From a virus, in IMG/VR virus record IMGVR_UViG_3300033144_006416, positions 1-40,288 of that record: DNA of 40,288 nucleotides; one strand, 5' to 3'. The notes below the pieces were generated by a model that was given only the letters and a program-made list of their open reading frames with translations, was not told the origin of the DNA and searched no databases. Below are positions 26,141 through 32,999 of the stretch, piece after piece. Each line of letters begins with the position of its first letter. Position 1 is the first letter of the stretch. The translations under genes were made by a program, and so were the position numbers.

Positions 26141-26368
26141 CTATCGCATGTTTGCTGCGTGTATGATCGCCTTGCCCCAAATCGAGATACGACCGCGTTC
26201 ACCACGCCTGAAGATCGGCTCGATCTCCTTGTTCTCAACCATGCGGTAGATGGTAGTCAGGGAGCGATCAAGTATGTCTGCCGCTTCCTGCACTGAGTAC
26301 GCTTCGCTAGGTACCACAGTGAAGCCGTTGATGATGATGCCCTTCTTTTCAGAACTCTCCGTTGTCAT
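26141..26368 (-). CDS. Small helix-turn-helix protein (excisionase/AlpA-like)
   Basis: The 75-residue protein contains a winged helix-turn-helix of the MerR/excisionase type: SVQEAADILDRSLTTIYRMV (about 25-44), then a turn with IFRRGERGRISI. Such proteins bind DNA as regulators or accessory factors. With no integrase visible, an excisionase function is unlikely; control of the replication operon or origin binding fits better. GAGG precedes ATG 26368 and the start overlaps the SSB-like gene by 20 bases. Confidence 0.82.
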   Translation of the reverse strand: MTTESSEKKGIIINGFTVVPSEAYSVQEAADILDRSLTTIYRMVENKEIEPIFRRGERGRISIWGKAIIHAANMR

Positions 26369-27173
26369 CCGTGTCCTCCCCGGGCTGTTCCGGCTGGTAG
26401 TCCTGTACGGACATCTCCGCTAGGACCGGAGCGATGTCCTCTTCGATCTTCACGAACAGTTCGGCTGGAACGTATCCTGCCCAGTCGATGGACTTGAACG
26501 TCCACCATTTGTAGGGATCGCGCTGGATGAACTCGGGTTCGATGCTGAAGACGCCGGTATACATCTTCAGACCGGCGCGCAGGATATGCGTGTTCAACTT
26601 GCGCGCAGCTTTGAGCTTCGTCATGTAGCACGACATGACCACCGCACCTCGCTCCTTCGACAAAGCAACCGCGTCAGGGATGCTAACGAGAGTCTCACCC
26701 TTCTTGATTGCTACTTCACTCGCCTTGAAGACGAGCGACATGTAGTCGAAGTAGAACATGCATTCGGGTGGCTTTCCTTTCGCCCCGAACTCCTTGAACT
26801 TGCACTTCATGCATTCACCGTAGTACGACCCGTAGTTGCCATCGAGTGAGATGCATTCGATCCCACCGCCGTCGTCGAAATCGACCCACTTGATCCTCTT
26901 CTTCTTCTGTACGACTGGGATGACGAAGATCCTCTTGCCGAGGTTCTCACCCGTAGACGTGACGATGAACTCCCCAGCCGAGCCGAGTGGTTCTTCGAGC
27001 TGGACCTCTGTTGAGTTGCTTTGCAGCAATTTCAACAGTGGCAGGAGAGCGTCATCGGCGCTGATGTCTCCAGCTTCAAGAGCTGCTTTCTGCAGGTACT
27101 CAGGCACCTTGTCCATGGCAGTGGTACCCTTCTTCTTCACCACTGCTTTTCCTTTTTCGTTCTTTGCTGGCAT
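26349..27173 (-). CDS. Probable single-stranded DNA-binding protein
   Basis: The 274-residue protein begins at ATG 27173 after AGGAGGAGACAC. It has a basic N-terminus (KNEKGKAVVKKKG), a cysteine pattern GECMKCKF..PPECMFYFDY that could bind zinc as in T4 gp32, and an acidic tail ending in a terminal Phe (GEDTDDNGEF). An acidic tail with a terminal aromatic residue is the hallmark by which T7 gp2.5 and bacterial SSB recruit replication partners. It is embedded among replication genes. The fold is not recognised with certainty. Confidence 0.7.
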   Translation of the reverse strand: MPAKNEKGKAVVKKKGTTAMDKVPEYLQKAALEAGDISADDALLPLLKLLQSNSTEVQLEEPLGSAGEFIVTSTGENLGKRIFVIPVVQKKKRIKWVDFDDGGGIECISLDGNYGSYYGECMKCKFKEFGAKGKPPECMFYFDYMSLVFKASEVAIKKGETLVSIPDAVALSKERGAVVMSCYMTKLKAARKLNTHILRAGLKMYTGVFSIEPEFIQRDPYKWWTFKSIDWAGYVPAELFVKIEEDIAPVLAEMSVQDYQPEQPGEDTDDNGEF

Positions 27174-27193
27174 GTGTCTCCTCCTAGAAAGAT

Positions 27194-27230
27194 ATGGAGG
27201 GTGTTGCAACGATCACAATCAACCCTCCAT
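27194..27230 (-). promoter_or_regulatory. Hairpin upstream of the SSB-like gene
   Basis: ATGGAGGG (27194-27201) pairs with CCCTCCAT (27223-27230), extended by TTG/CAA with a small bulge. It ends about ten bases before the ribosome site of the SSB-like gene on the minus strand and lacks a U-run. Processing, stabilisation or binding of the SSB to its own leader are possible. Confidence 0.55.
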
Positions 27231-27245
27231 GCTTAATTCTGGCAC

Positions 27246-27791
27246 TCACTTTTGCTTGAGTCTAACGTCGGTCCAGGCGTTGATGTCCAACCCCGGCACA
27301 CGGACCTCGGTTAGATCTACACCTTTCGCATAAGCTACCTCCTTAAGGTACGATTGCATCCGTGCCCACGGGCACTTCAAAGTCACGTCACCGTCTGACA
27401 GCTCGCCGGCATTCCCGCCGATATACTCCTCGACCACCTCTCTCAGGTGCCCGGCGAACTCGACCCCGACGAGAGCGAGAGCATTCTCCTCGCCGAGGTA
27501 ATTCCACAGCGCCTTCCAGTCCGTGATCTTCGCACGCGCAGCATCATGCGTCGTTATCCGGACACCGGAAGCGGTTGTTGCTTCGATCAGCATGTTCTCA
27601 GACAGCAGCGTCTGAATGATACTTTTCTGCTTGTTGATCTCCTCCTTGGCCTTCTTAACCTCACCCTCGTGGTAGGAGACATCGGCCTCAAGATCGAGGA
27701 TCTCCTTCGCCAGTCTATCGAGCTGTGTGATCACCGCCGTTGATGCTTGCGGTTCTTCGACTGCTGCGTCTTTCAGGTAATCCGGTTTCAT
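27246..27791 (-). CDS. Coiled-coil protein of the replication operon
   Basis: The 181-residue protein starts after AAGGAGGACT. Residues 20-70 form a long coiled coil (LAKEILDLEADVSYHEGEVK, KAKEEINKQKSIIQTLLSEN). The rest has a beta segment (ATTASGVRITTHDAARAKIT) and helices ending LDINAWTDVRLKQK. Many phages carry a protein of this layout beside SSB or helicase genes. I do not recognise a defined function. Confidence 0.72.
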   Translation of the reverse strand: MKPDYLKDAAVEEPQASTAVITQLDRLAKEILDLEADVSYHEGEVKKAKEEINKQKSIIQTLLSENMLIEATTASGVRITTHDAARAKITDWKALWNYLGEENALALVGVEFAGHLREVVEEYIGGNAGELSDGDVTLKCPWARMQSYLKEVAYAKGVDLTEVRVPGLDINAWTDVRLKQK

Positions 27792-29772: not shown

Positions 29773-30588
29773 TTACTTCTTGTTCTTCTTACTTTTCTTA
29801 GCCTTTGCTTTCGCTTTGGCCTTGGCCTTGGCGTTGCTCTTCGATATGGTCTTCGCCTTAGCTCTTGCCTTCTTCTCCTTCGCTCTTGCGTTGGTCTTCT
29901 CCTTCTTCTCAGCAGCTTTCACCTTGCGCGCATCGACGCGTTCGGCCTTCTTCGCGTCGCGCTCCTTGTCCTTCTTGTCGCGCTCCGCCTGCTTGAGTGC
30001 CGCACGGGCTTTGCGCGCTTCATCGCGCTCGATCTGCTTCTGCTTGTGGTACTCGTCCGGACCGAGCTCCTCCATCTTCCCGCCGCATGCGTTGCATGTG
30101 ATGTCGAGATCGTGCTCGAAGGTTCTGAACGAGTTGCATTCGCACATGTATGTGCTGCGAACGTCGATCGGCTTCGGCGTCTTGACCATCTTCGAGAGAT
30201 CGCCGACCTTGAGGGTATCGAGCATTGAGACGTACCGATCGTCGATCACGACCTTGCCGTGTGTCACGTGCATCCACATGCGCGCGACGCATTCTTTGAA
30301 GACATGCAGCATGGTTGCGGCTTCGTTGATCTCGTACATCCGCGAGTTGATGATGATCTGATGAGGAGCCTTGTAGTTCGTCGATGGAACGTACCGGCTT
30401 ACGAGGTTCGACCTCATCGATTTGATCTCGATGATAGGCTGAGGAAGCTTGCTGGCGAAGTGCTTCTTGTTGATAGCATCGAACGCAGCATACAGATCCT
30501 TGACCTGTTCATCCGCGTACTCGGTGAAGCTCCTGTAACCCTTCTTGAACTGGCTGCTTTTGGCGGTATACTCTTTCTGGTCTGACAT
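29773..30588 (-). CDS. SprT-like protein with degenerate active site and Lys/Ala-rich tail
   Basis: ATG 30588 follows GGAGGAAACGAA, giving 271 residues; the frame is open further upstream but without a better site. Residues 15-110 resemble SprT/Spartan proteins (LYAAFDAINKKHFASKLPQP, later IIINSRMYEIN and TMLHVFKECVARMW). The HExxH zinc protease motif expected in the last segment is absent. A zinc ribbon follows (CEC..CNACGG, about 148-170). The final 100 residues are Lys, Ala, Arg and Glu repeats ending in KAKAKAKAKKSKKNKK, like a histone H1 tail. It may bind DNA without proteolysis. Transcribed from its own promoter. Confidence 0.78.
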   Translation of the reverse strand: MSDQKEYTAKSSQFKKGYRSFTEYADEQVKDLYAAFDAINKKHFASKLPQPIIEIKSMRSNLVSRYVPSTNYKAPHQIIINSRMYEINEAATMLHVFKECVARMWMHVTHGKVVIDDRYVSMLDTLKVGDLSKMVKTPKPIDVRSTYMCECNSFRTFEHDLDITCNACGGKMEELGPDEYHKQKQIERDEARKARAALKQAERDKKDKERDAKKAERVDARKVKAAEKKEKTNARAKEKKARAKAKTISKSNAKAKAKAKAKAKKSKKNKK

Positions 30589-30680
30589 TTCGTTTCCTCC
30601 GTATTCAAAGTCTGCGTGCAGTTTCTTCTTCATCCCCCACCCACGATCCTCAATCCATACCCGGCCCTCCTTTCTAAGAT

Positions 30681-30709
30681 ATATTATCATCTTTCATCGA
30701 TTTTGTCAA
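30681..30709 (-). promoter_or_regulatory. Leftward sigma70-type promoter for the replication operon
   Basis: On the minus strand TTGACA (forward 30704-30709) is followed after 17 bases by TAATAT (forward 30681-30686). The spacer contains the 12-mer GATGAAAGATGA, which recurs exactly at 32761-32772. The transcript would begin near 30675, about 85 bases before the SprT-like start. Confidence 0.75.
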
Positions 30710-30867
30710 CCGCTTTTGGTGCCGATTCCGCGAACGACTTCCTCAACCTCGTACGAGACGTTGTTGCCTTCCTCGCCCACCTTCATTTCTTTCGCCATAA
30801 GCAGCATTTCTTCCTCGTCGAGCGAGGTGCAGACGATCTCCTTGCGAACTAGTGCGTACTCAGTCAT
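30706..30867 (-). CDS. 53-residue acidic protein
   Basis: ATG 30867 follows GGAGGTAGTC. The protein starts MTEYALVRKEIVCTSLDEEE and is acidic and helical. It follows the 20-codon frame after the first ribozyme, whose stop lies within its ribosome site, so the two could be coupled. It ends just inside the next promoter. Function unknown. Confidence 0.7.
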   Translation of the reverse strand: MTEYALVRKEIVCTSLDEEEMLLMAKEMKVGEEGNNVSYEVEEVVRGIGTKSG

Positions 30868-30869
30868 GA

Positions 30870-30932
30870 CTACCTCCAAGTCCTCTGCCACGTGATTGCT
30901 GCTCTCCATATCCATTCGAACCTTCTCATCAT
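30870..30932 (-). CDS. 20-codon Trp/Arg-rich micro-ORF after ribozyme 1
   Basis: After ribozyme 1 the minus strand reads AAGGAGTAGAATGATG, the same ribozyme-ribosome site-start layout seen after the other three ribozymes. The frame codes for a 20-residue basic peptide with four Trp and five Arg, starting MMRRFEWIWRAAI. Its stop (TAG) lies in the ribosome site of the next gene. It could be a coupling leader peptide or a real micro-protein. Confidence 0.5.
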   Translation of the reverse strand: MMRRFEWIWRAAITWQRTWR

Positions 30933-30947
30933 TCTACTCCTTCTCAA

Positions 30948-31004
30948 AGCCTCATCAGTACCGGTATCTCCGGCAGACGCCCTCGCGATGAGGGCGTTTC
31001 GGCT
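30948..31004 (-). ncRNA. Hammerhead ribozyme 1 (stem II open)
   Basis: On the minus strand the order is AGCC (stem II), GAA, stem III ACGCCCTC/GAGGGCGT with loop ATCGC, C17, stem I TGCCGG/CCGGTA with loop AGATA, CTGATGA, GGCT (stem II). All invariant core bases are present. Predicted cleavage lies between forward bases 30976 and 30975. Stem I contains one G-U pair and one compensating change relative to the other copies. The stop codon of the upstream PC4-like gene (TAG) shares two bases with stem II. Confidence 0.92.
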
Positions 31005-31269
31005 ACTTCACGCTCGACATCGCGTCCTCGATATCTCCCATCTTGGCGTTGAGTGTCTGCAGAAGTTCCCAACCGATCGCTGGGCGCTTTCCCGGCTTCC
31101 AGACGTCCTCGTCCTTCTTCCGGTACCACGTCTGTACGTTGAGAACGGGATCCTTCTTGTAGACGACGATGGTGATCGCAGTCGCGTTGCGCTCGTCGTG
31201 CTCGATGACATCGATCGTCGCGATGTGCTTTCCATAAGCATCATCTAACGGCAGGTTGATCTTTCCCAT
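31003..31269 (-). CDS. PC4-like single-stranded DNA-binding protein (probable)
   Basis: ATG 31269 lies behind GGAGGAGGGAC, directly after ribozyme 2, and gives 88 residues; longer frames run back through the ribozyme. The C-terminal half (VLNVQTWYRKKDEDVWKPGK, then helix ELLQTLNAKMGDIEDAM) matches the PC4/YdbC pattern of strands ending in a WKPGK turn and one helix. Such proteins bind single-stranded DNA and affect transcription or replication. Its TAG stop runs into ribozyme 1. Confidence 0.72.
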   Translation of the reverse strand: MGKINLPLDDAYGKHIATIDVIEHDERNATAITIVVYKKDPVLNVQTWYRKKDEDVWKPGKRPAIGWELLQTLNAKMGDIEDAMSSVK

Positions 31270-31288
31270 GTCCCTCCTCCTTCTCTGA

Positions 31289-31344
31289 AGCCTCATCAGT
31301 GCTGGTATCTCCAGCAGACGCTCCCATGCGGGAGCGTTTCGGCT
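31289..31344 (-). ncRNA. Hammerhead ribozyme 2 (stem II open)
   Basis: Minus-strand order: AGCC, GAA, stem III ACGCTCCC/GGGAGCGT with loop GCAT, C17, stem I TGCTGG/CCAGCA with loop AGATA, CTGATGA, GGCT. Cleavage is predicted between forward bases 31317 and 31316. The upstream zinc-ribbon gene stop (TAG, 31343-31345) shares its A and G with stem II. The downstream ATG lies 19 bases beyond the ribozyme. Confidence 0.93.
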
Positions 31345-31579
31345 ATGCTTTGAAGTCTTCCTCAGGATCAGCAATGTGCAGAGGGATATCCACTCCGCAA
31401 TTCGGGCACGTGACGACGATCGCGATCGCTGCGACAACAGGATAATCACGCCAAATGACGATCCTCTTGCCGATAGGGGAATTGAACTCCGCACGATAGT
31501 CACATGACATACACTCAGCCTCGTAGTTACCGAAGATCTCCATGTTCAGATCGTCTCTGATCTCGCTTACGTCCGCCAT
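31343..31579 (-). CDS. Small zinc-ribbon protein
   Basis: The 78-residue protein starts after GAAGGAGGAATC, directly behind ribozyme 3. Two Cys pairs, CMSC (about 23-26) and CPNC (about 58-61), form a zinc ribbon with beta strands between them (IGKRIVIWRDYPVVAAIAIV). Such proteins often mediate nucleic acid or protein contacts. Function unknown. The stop overlaps ribozyme 2. Confidence 0.78.
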   Translation of the reverse strand: MADVSEIRDDLNMEIFGNYEAECMSCDYRAEFNSPIGKRIVIWRDYPVVAAIAIVVTCPNCGVDIPLHIADPEEDFKA

Positions 31580-31596
31580 GATTCCTCCTTCTCTGA

Positions 31597-31652
31597 AGCC
31601 TCATCAGTGCTGGTATCTCCAGCAGACGCCCTCACACGAGGGCGTTTCGGCT
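31597..31652 (-). ncRNA. Hammerhead ribozyme 3 (stem II open)
   Basis: Minus-strand order: AGCC, GAA, stem III ACGCCCTC/GAGGGCGT with loop GTGT, C17, stem I TGCTGG/CCAGCA with loop AGATA, CTGATGA, GGCT. Cleavage is predicted between forward bases 31625 and 31624. The upstream gene stop TGA (31654-31656) is separated from stem II by a single base. Confidence 0.93.
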
Positions 31653-31653
31653 A

Positions 31654-31980
31654 TCAGTCGATGAAACGGATCTCAGTGTGCCTCGCAGGACGTCCATCGT
31701 CGAAACCCCACGTCGCGACGAGTTCCGGCGTATCTGCGCATACGCGAACACGGTACGCGATGCTGTCATCGTAGATCTTCTGCACGCCAACGACTTCATG
31801 CACGAGAGCATGAATAGTTCCATAACAGGATTTGTCAGGATCTACGAACACGCAGTGCCTTCCGATATCGTTGTGGAACGGATGCGCTGGATCTACATCG
31901 AACAACCCTCCTTTGCTAGCAATGATACCCTTGAAATCCGGATGACTCTGATCGTGAATGTCCTTCTGATTCTTATTCAT
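31654..31980 (-). CDS. Unrecognised 108-residue protein between ribozymes 4 and 3
   Basis: ATG 31980 follows AAGGAGGAGCGTGAC behind ribozyme 4. The protein starts MNKNQKDIHDQSHPDFKGII and appears a compact alpha/beta or small beta-barrel type (GRHCVFVDPDKSCYGTIHAL, later DDSIAYRVRVCADTPELVAT). Composition is that of a real folded protein. No family recognised. Confidence 0.75.
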   Translation of the reverse strand: MNKNQKDIHDQSHPDFKGIIASKGGLFDVDPAHPFHNDIGRHCVFVDPDKSCYGTIHALVHEVVGVQKIYDDSIAYRVRVCADTPELVATWGFDDGRPARHTEIRFID

Positions 31981-32000
31981 GTCACGCTCCTCCTTCTTAA

Positions 32001-32054
32001 AGCCTCATCAGTGCTGGTATCTCCAGCAGACGCTCCCGAAGGAGCGTTTCGGCT
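32001..32054 (-). ncRNA. Hammerhead ribozyme 4 (stem II open, UUCG-capped stem III)
   Basis: Minus-strand order: AGCC, GAA, stem III ACGCTCC/GGAGCGT capped by the stable tetraloop TTCG, C17, stem I TGCTGG/CCAGCA with loop AGATA, CTGATGA, GGCT. Cleavage is predicted between forward bases 32029 and 32028. It lies two bases beyond the TAG stop of the upstream gene (32057-32059) and 20 bases before the next ATG. Confidence 0.93.
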
Positions 32055-32056
32055 AT

Positions 32057-32398
32057 CTAGTACTGCGAGTCGTTCTCGATCGCCCAGTCAACGACTGCGG
32101 CTTCTGCCATTGACATGTTGCACGTCTCGTTGTAGCAATCCTCGTAGACCTTGACAGCGATCTTATTCCACGTCGCGAAGATAATATCCTTGTCGCCATC
32201 GATCACGACGTACTGCTTCTTCAGACCGTTCAATCCGTTTCTTACCATCTCGACGGCACAGCGCTTCACACTCTTCTTAGAAAGAGCAGCGCGCATCGCG
32301 TCGCGGTACGGCTCGAGTTCAATGTCAGTGTAGCAATTGTTGCTTACGAAGTCGATGTATGCCTTGCAAGCATCCTTAAGTTCCTGTCCCTTTTTCAT
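32057..32398 (-). CDS. Unrecognised 113-residue protein before ribozyme 4
   Basis: ATG 32398 follows GAGGAGGAGCGAG, a leader nearly identical to that of the gene before it. The protein is mainly helical (MKKGQELKDACKAYIDFVSN, ALSKKSVKRCAVEMVRNGLN) with a central beta stretch (KKQYVVIDGDKDIIFATWNK) and several cysteines. Function unknown. No ribozyme separates it from the preceding gene. Confidence 0.75.
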   Translation of the reverse strand: MKKGQELKDACKAYIDFVSNNCYTDIELEPYRDAMRAALSKKSVKRCAVEMVRNGLNGLKKQYVVIDGDKDIIFATWNKIAVKVYEDCYNETCNMSMAEAAVVDWAIENDSQY

Positions 32399-32427: not shown

Positions 32428-32673
32428 TTACACAACGTTAAAGTCTACTGAAAAATACCCACACGCGTGCGAGGGATTGCTGCTGTCGAACTCAACGAAC
32501 TCGATGTTCGTCACTTCGATCTCGATCCCCTCAGTTTCTTTCATCTCGGCTTTCGTGATCTCCTCCGCTTTGTCAAATGCCTCACGGCACACATCAAAAT
32601 CATCATCGAAATCCGCAACGAACAAGCAAACTTCCGTCCACCTTGTCTTGCTCTCTGTCTCCTGCTTCTTCAT
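32428..32673 (-). CDS. First gene of the ribozyme operon, 81 residues
   Basis: ATG 32673 follows GAGGAGGAGCGAG. The acidic protein (MKKQETESKTRWTEVCLFVA, then an acidic helix EAFDKAEEITKAEMKE, then beta strands ending CGYFSVDFNVV) has alpha/beta layout. It is the first gene after the leftward promoter at 32723-32751. Function unknown. Confidence 0.75.
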   Translation of the reverse strand: MKKQETESKTRWTEVCLFVADFDDDFDVCREAFDKAEEITKAEMKETEGIEIEVTNIEFVEFDSSNPSHACGYFSVDFNVV

Positions 32674-32722: not shown

Positions 32723-32751
32723 AATATATACCTGTTGCACGTTCTTGTACA
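32723..32751 (-). promoter_or_regulatory. Leftward promoter of the ribozyme operon
   Basis: On the minus strand TGTACA (32746-32751) and TATATT (forward AATATA, 32723-32728) are 17 bases apart. Same hexamer and spacing occur at 38637-38665. The spacer holds AGAACGTGCA (32736-32745), related to motifs in the 38.7-39.0 kb control region, and GATGAAAGATGA lies just upstream (32761-32772). The gap between genes here runs 32674-32999. Confidence 0.6.
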
Positions 32752-32825
32752 CCCCTATTTTCATCTTTCATCATTTTTTTTTGATGCGTAACCTATGCAG
32801 CAGTAAAGAGTTAAGTATTGAGCTG

Positions 32826-32859
32826 AAATAAAAATGGCGCCGTGTGTTAAACGGCGCCA
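32826..32859 (-). terminator. Leftward rho-independent terminator after the methyltransferase gene
   Basis: On the minus strand a perfect 9-bp stem, TGGCGCCGT/ACGGCGCCA with a 7-base loop, is followed by TTTTTATTT. It ends the leftward transcript of the 33-38 kb operon just before the promoter of the ribozyme operon. Bases 32860-32999 between it and the methyltransferase stop hold no gene that I can support. Confidence 0.92.
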
Positions 32860-32999
32860 CTGGAGCGCGATCCTGCTGCAAAGATCACGCGAAGGAGGGG
32901 AATCAGAAGGTGATCACTTACAATGTAATAGTACAACGCCCGATCGAATGTGTATACCGAAGACTCCGCTGGTATGCGATCAACACAACATCACTCACT

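Follow-up and report, generated by a model that had tools for sequence, protein, structure and literature searches.

Four minus-strand type II hammerhead ribozymes stand at successive junctions between small genes in a viral operon, and the best reading of this arrangement, which we consider likely, is that they cut the operon mRNA co-transcriptionally into stabilized single-gene units. The ribozymes (HHR1 to HHR4; Table 1) lie in a 40,288-base virus contig that was analyzed over its whole length and is called the window below. The hammerhead motifs, their fit to the known RNA family, their compensatory conservation, their position and their recurrence in many phages are all directly seen. The contig also encodes a terminase, a portal protein, a tape measure protein, an amidase, a DNA polymerase, a primase/helicase and an SNF2 helicase, a gene content that identifies it as a tailed phage.

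Four hammerheads in an operon of small genes

The four ribozymes share the layout AGCC-GAAA-stem III hairpin-UC/stem I hairpin-CUGAUGA-GGCU (slash, scissile bond), in which stem II is an open helix of 4 bp (AGCC/GGCU), stem III is closed and is formed by A15.1-U16.1 plus 6–7 more pairs, and stem I is closed and has 6 bp, with C17 and CUGAUGA present in each copy. The first-pass annotation had placed four complete hammerheads on this strand, and both motif reading and matching to the Rfam Hammerhead_II model (RF02276) recover all of them at exactly the coordinates it gave, with the elements that it listed (CUGAUGA, GAA, A15.1-U16.1, C17, closed stems I and III, open stem II) seen in four of four. 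The catalytic core nucleotides (CUGAUGA, GAA(A), U16.1 and C17) are intact in every copy and, judged by core and architecture as read from the letters, HHR1–4 are type II hammerheads. The Rfam comparison that the annotation had proposed as a check turned out positive for HHR1, HHR2 and HHR3, which score above the gathering score of 37 bits, but HHR4 falls just under this cut-off, with E-values of 0.0016 against all Rfam and 3.8e-7 against RF02276 alone.

Table 1. Features of the ribozyme-bearing operon and its borders, in the direction of transcription. Hammerhead coordinates span from the stem II 5' strand to the stem II 3' strand.
Feature	Position	Strand	Details
Terminator-like hairpin of 11 pairs at the end of the upstream unit	32833–32861	-	intrinsic-terminator-like
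Putative operon promoter, TGTACA-17-TATATT, sigma-70-like	32723–32751	-	consensus match only
Gene 1, 81 aa, orphan	32428–32673	-	
Gene 2, 113 aa, orphan	32057–32398	-	
HHR1, type II hammerhead	32001–32054	-	scissile bond C17 32029 / U 32028; RF02276 37.3 bits
Gene 3, 108 aa, orphan, flanked by HHR1 and HHR2	31654–31980	-	
HHR2, type II hammerhead	31597–31652	-	scissile bond 31625/31624; RF02276 38.4 bits
Gene 4, 78 aa, HHR2–HHR3 interval	31343–31579	-	two CxxC motifs (zinc-ribbon-like, sub-threshold)
HHR3, type II hammerhead	31289–31344	-	scissile bond 31317/31316; RF02276 40.3 bits
Gene 5, 88 aa, HHR3–HHR4 interval	31003–31269	-	PC4-like at E 0.0012 (weak; below cut-off)
HHR4, type II hammerhead	30948–31004	-	scissile bond 30976/30975; RF02276 34.9 bits
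20-aa reading frame with its own SD, immediately 3' of HHR4	30870–30932	-	read from sequence
Gene 6, 53 aa, orphan, 3' of HHR4	30706–30867	-	
Promoter-like site, TTGACA-17-TAATAT, sigma-70-like, start of the next unit	30681–30709	-	consensus match only

The operon runs in the order 81 aa, 113 aa, HHR1, 108 aa, HHR2, 78 aa, HHR3, 88 aa, HHR4 and then the 20-aa frame and the 53-aa gene, and each ribozyme is preceded by a stop codon and followed by the Shine-Dalgarno (SD) site of the next gene. The annotation's description of hammerheads between consecutive small genes therefore holds for four successive junctions but not for the whole operon, as there is no ribozyme at its first junction, between the 81-aa and 113-aa genes, or between the 20-aa and 53-aa frames. 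Both promoter-like sites are consensus matches of a kind no commoner in the window than in shuffles. They share a 23-nt sequence (GATGAAAGATGAAAATA-like; 32756–32778 and 30682–30704), which is perhaps a phage promoter element.

Profile matching assigned none of the operon proteins to a family with confidence. No relatives were found in phage records, either by tblastn with four operon proteins or by blastn with the 28–34 kb region of the window, and none were found in IMG/VR for proteins of the operon or for the helicase beside it. The operon genes of the window have no similarity to one another, and duplication of a whole gene-ribozyme cassette within it was rejected on this ground.

Some further observations concern the remainder of the contig. 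A 305-aa protein (29773–30690, minus strand), for which there was no family match, looks SprT-like by eye, with HVFKE instead of HExxH (a degenerate metal motif), a CxC...CxxC region, and a C-terminal tail rich in lysine and alanine. Two other minus-strand proteins match families of the cyanophage Pam3, namely gp34 (26349–27209, above cut-off) and gp33 (27246–27791, weak), which gives a faint hint of the host or lineage. There were no other RNA families or tRNAs of note in the window.

Chance controls, covariation and predicted folding

A generic descriptor of type II hammerheads, built from the core and the three helices, matched the minus strand of the window four times and the plus strand not at all, and it had no match in 200 dinucleotide-preserving shuffles of the window. 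Mean column identity among HHR1–4 is 83%. When their pairing is compared, all 68 pair cells are standard and no pair is broken; three pairs have been altered on both sides (two in stem III and one in stem I), and one further pair has changed from G-C to G-U. Covariation of the helices without a broken pair is as predicted by selection on RNA structure.

Folded alone, each ribozyme adopts the three hammerhead helices as its minimum-energy structure. When surrounding sequence is added, HHR2 with both flanks is still predicted to fold as a hammerhead; for HHR1, HHR3 and HHR4, predicted alternatives beat the full hammerhead by approximately 0–9 kcal/mol, HHR1 being the worst, in calculations that leave out co-transcriptional order as well as tertiary contacts and stabilization. 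It is mainly stem II that is lost in the predicted folds of HHR3 and HHR4. The alternative fold of HHR1 (32047–31981, minus strand) pairs the 5' strand of stem III with the SD region and is 7.3 kcal/mol more stable when 30 nt downstream are included. Sequestration of the SD by stem III was rejected as a common rule, being absent from HHR2–4, and is either specific to HHR1 or incidental.

Loop I of HHR1–4 is short (AGAUA), and none of the four has a pseudoknot of at least 4 bp between loop I and the 3' tail, with at most 2 bp in each. Among the viral type II hammerheads in the matches listed from the survey described below, this pseudoknot occurs in 52 of 70 long-loop members (14.6 expected) and in 12 of 119 short-loop members (4.5 expected), so that it is common in the type but does not define it. 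Viral type II hammerheads appear to form two subclasses, one with a long loop I and the tail pseudoknot and the other with a loop I of 5–6 nt and mostly without it. Because HHR1–4 lack this contact, their predicted cleavage speed at cellular Mg2+ is uncertain.

Recurrence in viral contigs

IMG/VR was scanned with three pattern descriptors, after which all helices were checked, and the nonredundant set comprises at least 189 type II hammerheads in at least 136 loci, including a few from four bacterial genome loci and the window's own four. Among the matches listed, 28 of 136 loci carry two or more hammerheads on one strand and 11 of 136 carry three or more, the largest arrays being L106 with eight, L114 with seven, L168 with six, and L116 and L031 with five each. 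Whole-record searches with RF02276 were concordant with the pattern survey, returning, for example, five in one 41.9-kb record. With a tighter pattern there were matches in 41 viral stretches compared with 4 in a genome collection of 257 billion bases, which indicates that the type II element is concentrated in phages.

In L106 (890–4792, minus), L168 (128–4229, plus) and L116 (10788–13090, plus), the copies within an array are alike except in variable stems and loops. The genes preceded by ribozymes have no shared functional theme, as no family occurs more than twice among 149 proteins, which include anti-restriction, HNH and HTH proteins.

A model for transcript processing

In the model that we favor, minus-strand transcription of the small orphan genes would start at the putative promoter near 32.75 kb, and four type II hammerheads, one for each of four successive gene junctions, would cut the transcript as it is made. 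Cutting after the GUC would leave an upstream mRNA whose 3' end, just past the stop codon, is a stable stem III hairpin with a 2',3'-cyclic phosphate, and a downstream mRNA that begins with a 5'-OH and the 6-bp stem I hairpin and carries its SD inside a leader of 43–48 nt; the predicted fragments between cuts are 404, 308 and 341 nt long. In bacterial mRNA decay, 5'-OH ends and terminal hairpins protect RNA. The likely effect would be to uncouple the decay and translation of adjacent genes and to produce decay-resistant single-gene mRNAs.

A processing model of this kind, with a 5'-OH hairpin and ribosome site downstream and a stem III hairpin upstream of each cut, had been put forward in the first-pass annotation and fits both the sequence and the literature. 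The Rfam matches, the shuffle control, the covariation, the isolated folds, the placement of stop codons and SD sites, the promoter- and terminator-like frame, the recurrence in other phages and the cleavage of other clustered phage hammerheads (Perreault et al. 2011; PMC3088659) speak for it; the missing loop I-tail pseudoknot, the alternative folds in context and the junctions without a ribozyme speak against it. We infer that HHR1–4 cleave, and likewise the timing of cleavage and its effect on expression. Its four near-identical ribozymes at successive junctions and its defined putative promoter make the operon a clean case for testing what hammerheads do in phages.

Stop codons against stem II

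The end of the stop codon of each upstream open reading frame (at least 40 codons) was scored relative to the first base of the stem II 5' strand. Among the matches listed, 111 of 185 nonredundant hammerheads have a stop that ends no more than 2 nt to either side of that base (-2 to +2). The corresponding figures are 2.8% for control NGCC sites, drawn from some of the loci, 8% for non-hammerhead GCCGAAA sites, and 2 of 58 in an opposite-strand control. Two exact registers, one with GCC directly behind the stop and one with a UAG that shares its G with GCC, hold 64 of the 185 in these listed matches. Where GCC directly follows a UAG, 10 of 14 cases have C as the partner base after GGC, against 0 of 23 for UAA and UGA; UGA stops never pair with stem II. 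Within the operon, the upstream stops of HHR3 and HHR4 are UAG codons that enter stem II and share a G with GCC, HHR2 is preceded by a UGA-UAG pair of stops, and the stop upstream of HHR1 ends 2 nt before stem II. Downstream of the viral type II hammerheads among the matches listed, an SD and a start codon usually come next on the same strand as the stop. As the stop abuts stem II and the SD follows, the ribozyme and the SD together often make up practically all of the intergenic region.

This geometry bears on a refinement of the processing model that is possible but rather unlikely, in which a terminating or initiating ribosome would block folding of the ribozyme, so that only transcripts untranslated at the junction would be cut; in an alternative form, the ribozyme would tune the ratio of neighboring genes to translation. 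The enrichment over the control sites and the opposite strand, the two exact registers and the preference for a C partner after UAG all favor such a role for the ribosome. However, compact phage genomes alone would put the element right behind a stop codon, and UGA stops occur without any stem II pairing. Compact placement and ribosome blocking of folding could each account for the geometry, and the data do not distinguish between them.

That intergenic type II hammerheads of phages are built around the upstream stop codon, with the terminating ribosome gating self-cleavage, we regard as unlikely. If true, it would mean that phage operons hold translation-controlled RNA cutting sites, which set which neighboring genes share one mRNA. 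The recurrent contact of stop codon and stem II (185 cases scored, among the matches listed) points to a specific link between translation and cutting that can be tested. We found no description of this geometry in the literature searched, from which subscription papers were mostly absent, and the main text of Perreault et al. 2011 (PMC3088659) uses neither 'stop codon' nor 'ribosome'.

Other explanations of the array

It is improbable that the ribozymes serve instead as conserved linkers, meaning repeated border sequences of 55–70 bp for the gain, loss and shuffling of cassettes by homologous recombination, with cutting incidental. Several features agree with such a use: the four copies are alike while the genes between them are unrelated, gene identity differs between arrays (likewise in Perreault et al. 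2011; PMC3088659), and the neighboring genes of L106 are paralogous. Nevertheless, the changes between the copies of the window keep base pairing and the catalytic core, and the ribozymes of L031, L050 and L114 diverge strongly within each array yet keep their cores, which pure DNA homology would not need.

The missing loop I-tail pseudoknot and the alternative folds in context, above all that of HHR1, would suit copies that act as structured spacers or 3'-protective hairpins without substantial cleavage. We consider this still less probable, since no core nucleotide is altered in any of the four, a conservation that is not required of simple hairpins. The ends made by hammerheads are substrates of RtcB-type ligases. 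That paired cuts free gene-length RNAs (5'-OH, 2',3'-cyclic phosphate), which an RNA ligase then rejoins or circularizes, would suit such ends but is very improbable, given that Perreault et al. sought spliced and circular products and found none (PMC3088659) and that no RNA ligase or polynucleotide kinase is among the scanned proteins of the window.

Comparison with known systems

The processing model returns us to a known kind of arrangement, namely clustered phage hammerheads. The first-pass annotation took a regular series of alternating genes and ribozymes that serves mRNA processing to be undescribed, but such a series was described in 2011 by Perreault et al. (PMC3088659), who reported clusters of hammerheads around single genes or short gene blocks in prophages, with small or unknown genes between them, and proposed the processing of long phage transcripts into single-gene mRNAs. 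Their arrays include those of the Agrobacterium tumefaciens ardA region, Azorhizobium caulinodans and Clostridium scindens; cleavage was shown in vitro for three arrays, at every motif, and in E. coli for one, and circular or spliced products were not found. The observation was repeated in 2017 in the review of de la Pena et al. (PMC6155905), where the role of hammerheads in phages and bacteria is described as still open, and longer arrays than that of the window are present in IMG/VR.

As in those prophage clusters, several coding-strand hammerheads flank single genes in a phage genome in the window, and the genes between them are small or unknown. The window differs in that four successive junctions are occupied, all by nearly identical ribozymes of type II, in a virus contig that has no known relatives; cleavage has been demonstrated for the prophage clusters, whereas the ribozymes of the window are known from their sequence. 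Compared with Rfam RF02276, the ribozymes agree with the model along its whole length in core, stem order and open stem II, whereas HHR4 is below the cut-off and the short loop I lacks the pseudoknot of long-loop members. The other IMG/VR type II arrays (L106, L168, L116, L031 and L114) resemble that of the window in lying on the gene strand, usually with one gene per interval, and in having the stop against stem II and an SD downstream; their genes and ribozyme sequences differ, and several of them have the loop I-tail pseudoknot. The hammerhead variant of haloviruses HF1 and HF2 (PMC3088659, PMC7230728) is likewise a viral hammerhead just upstream of a start codon, but it is present as a single copy with an altered core.
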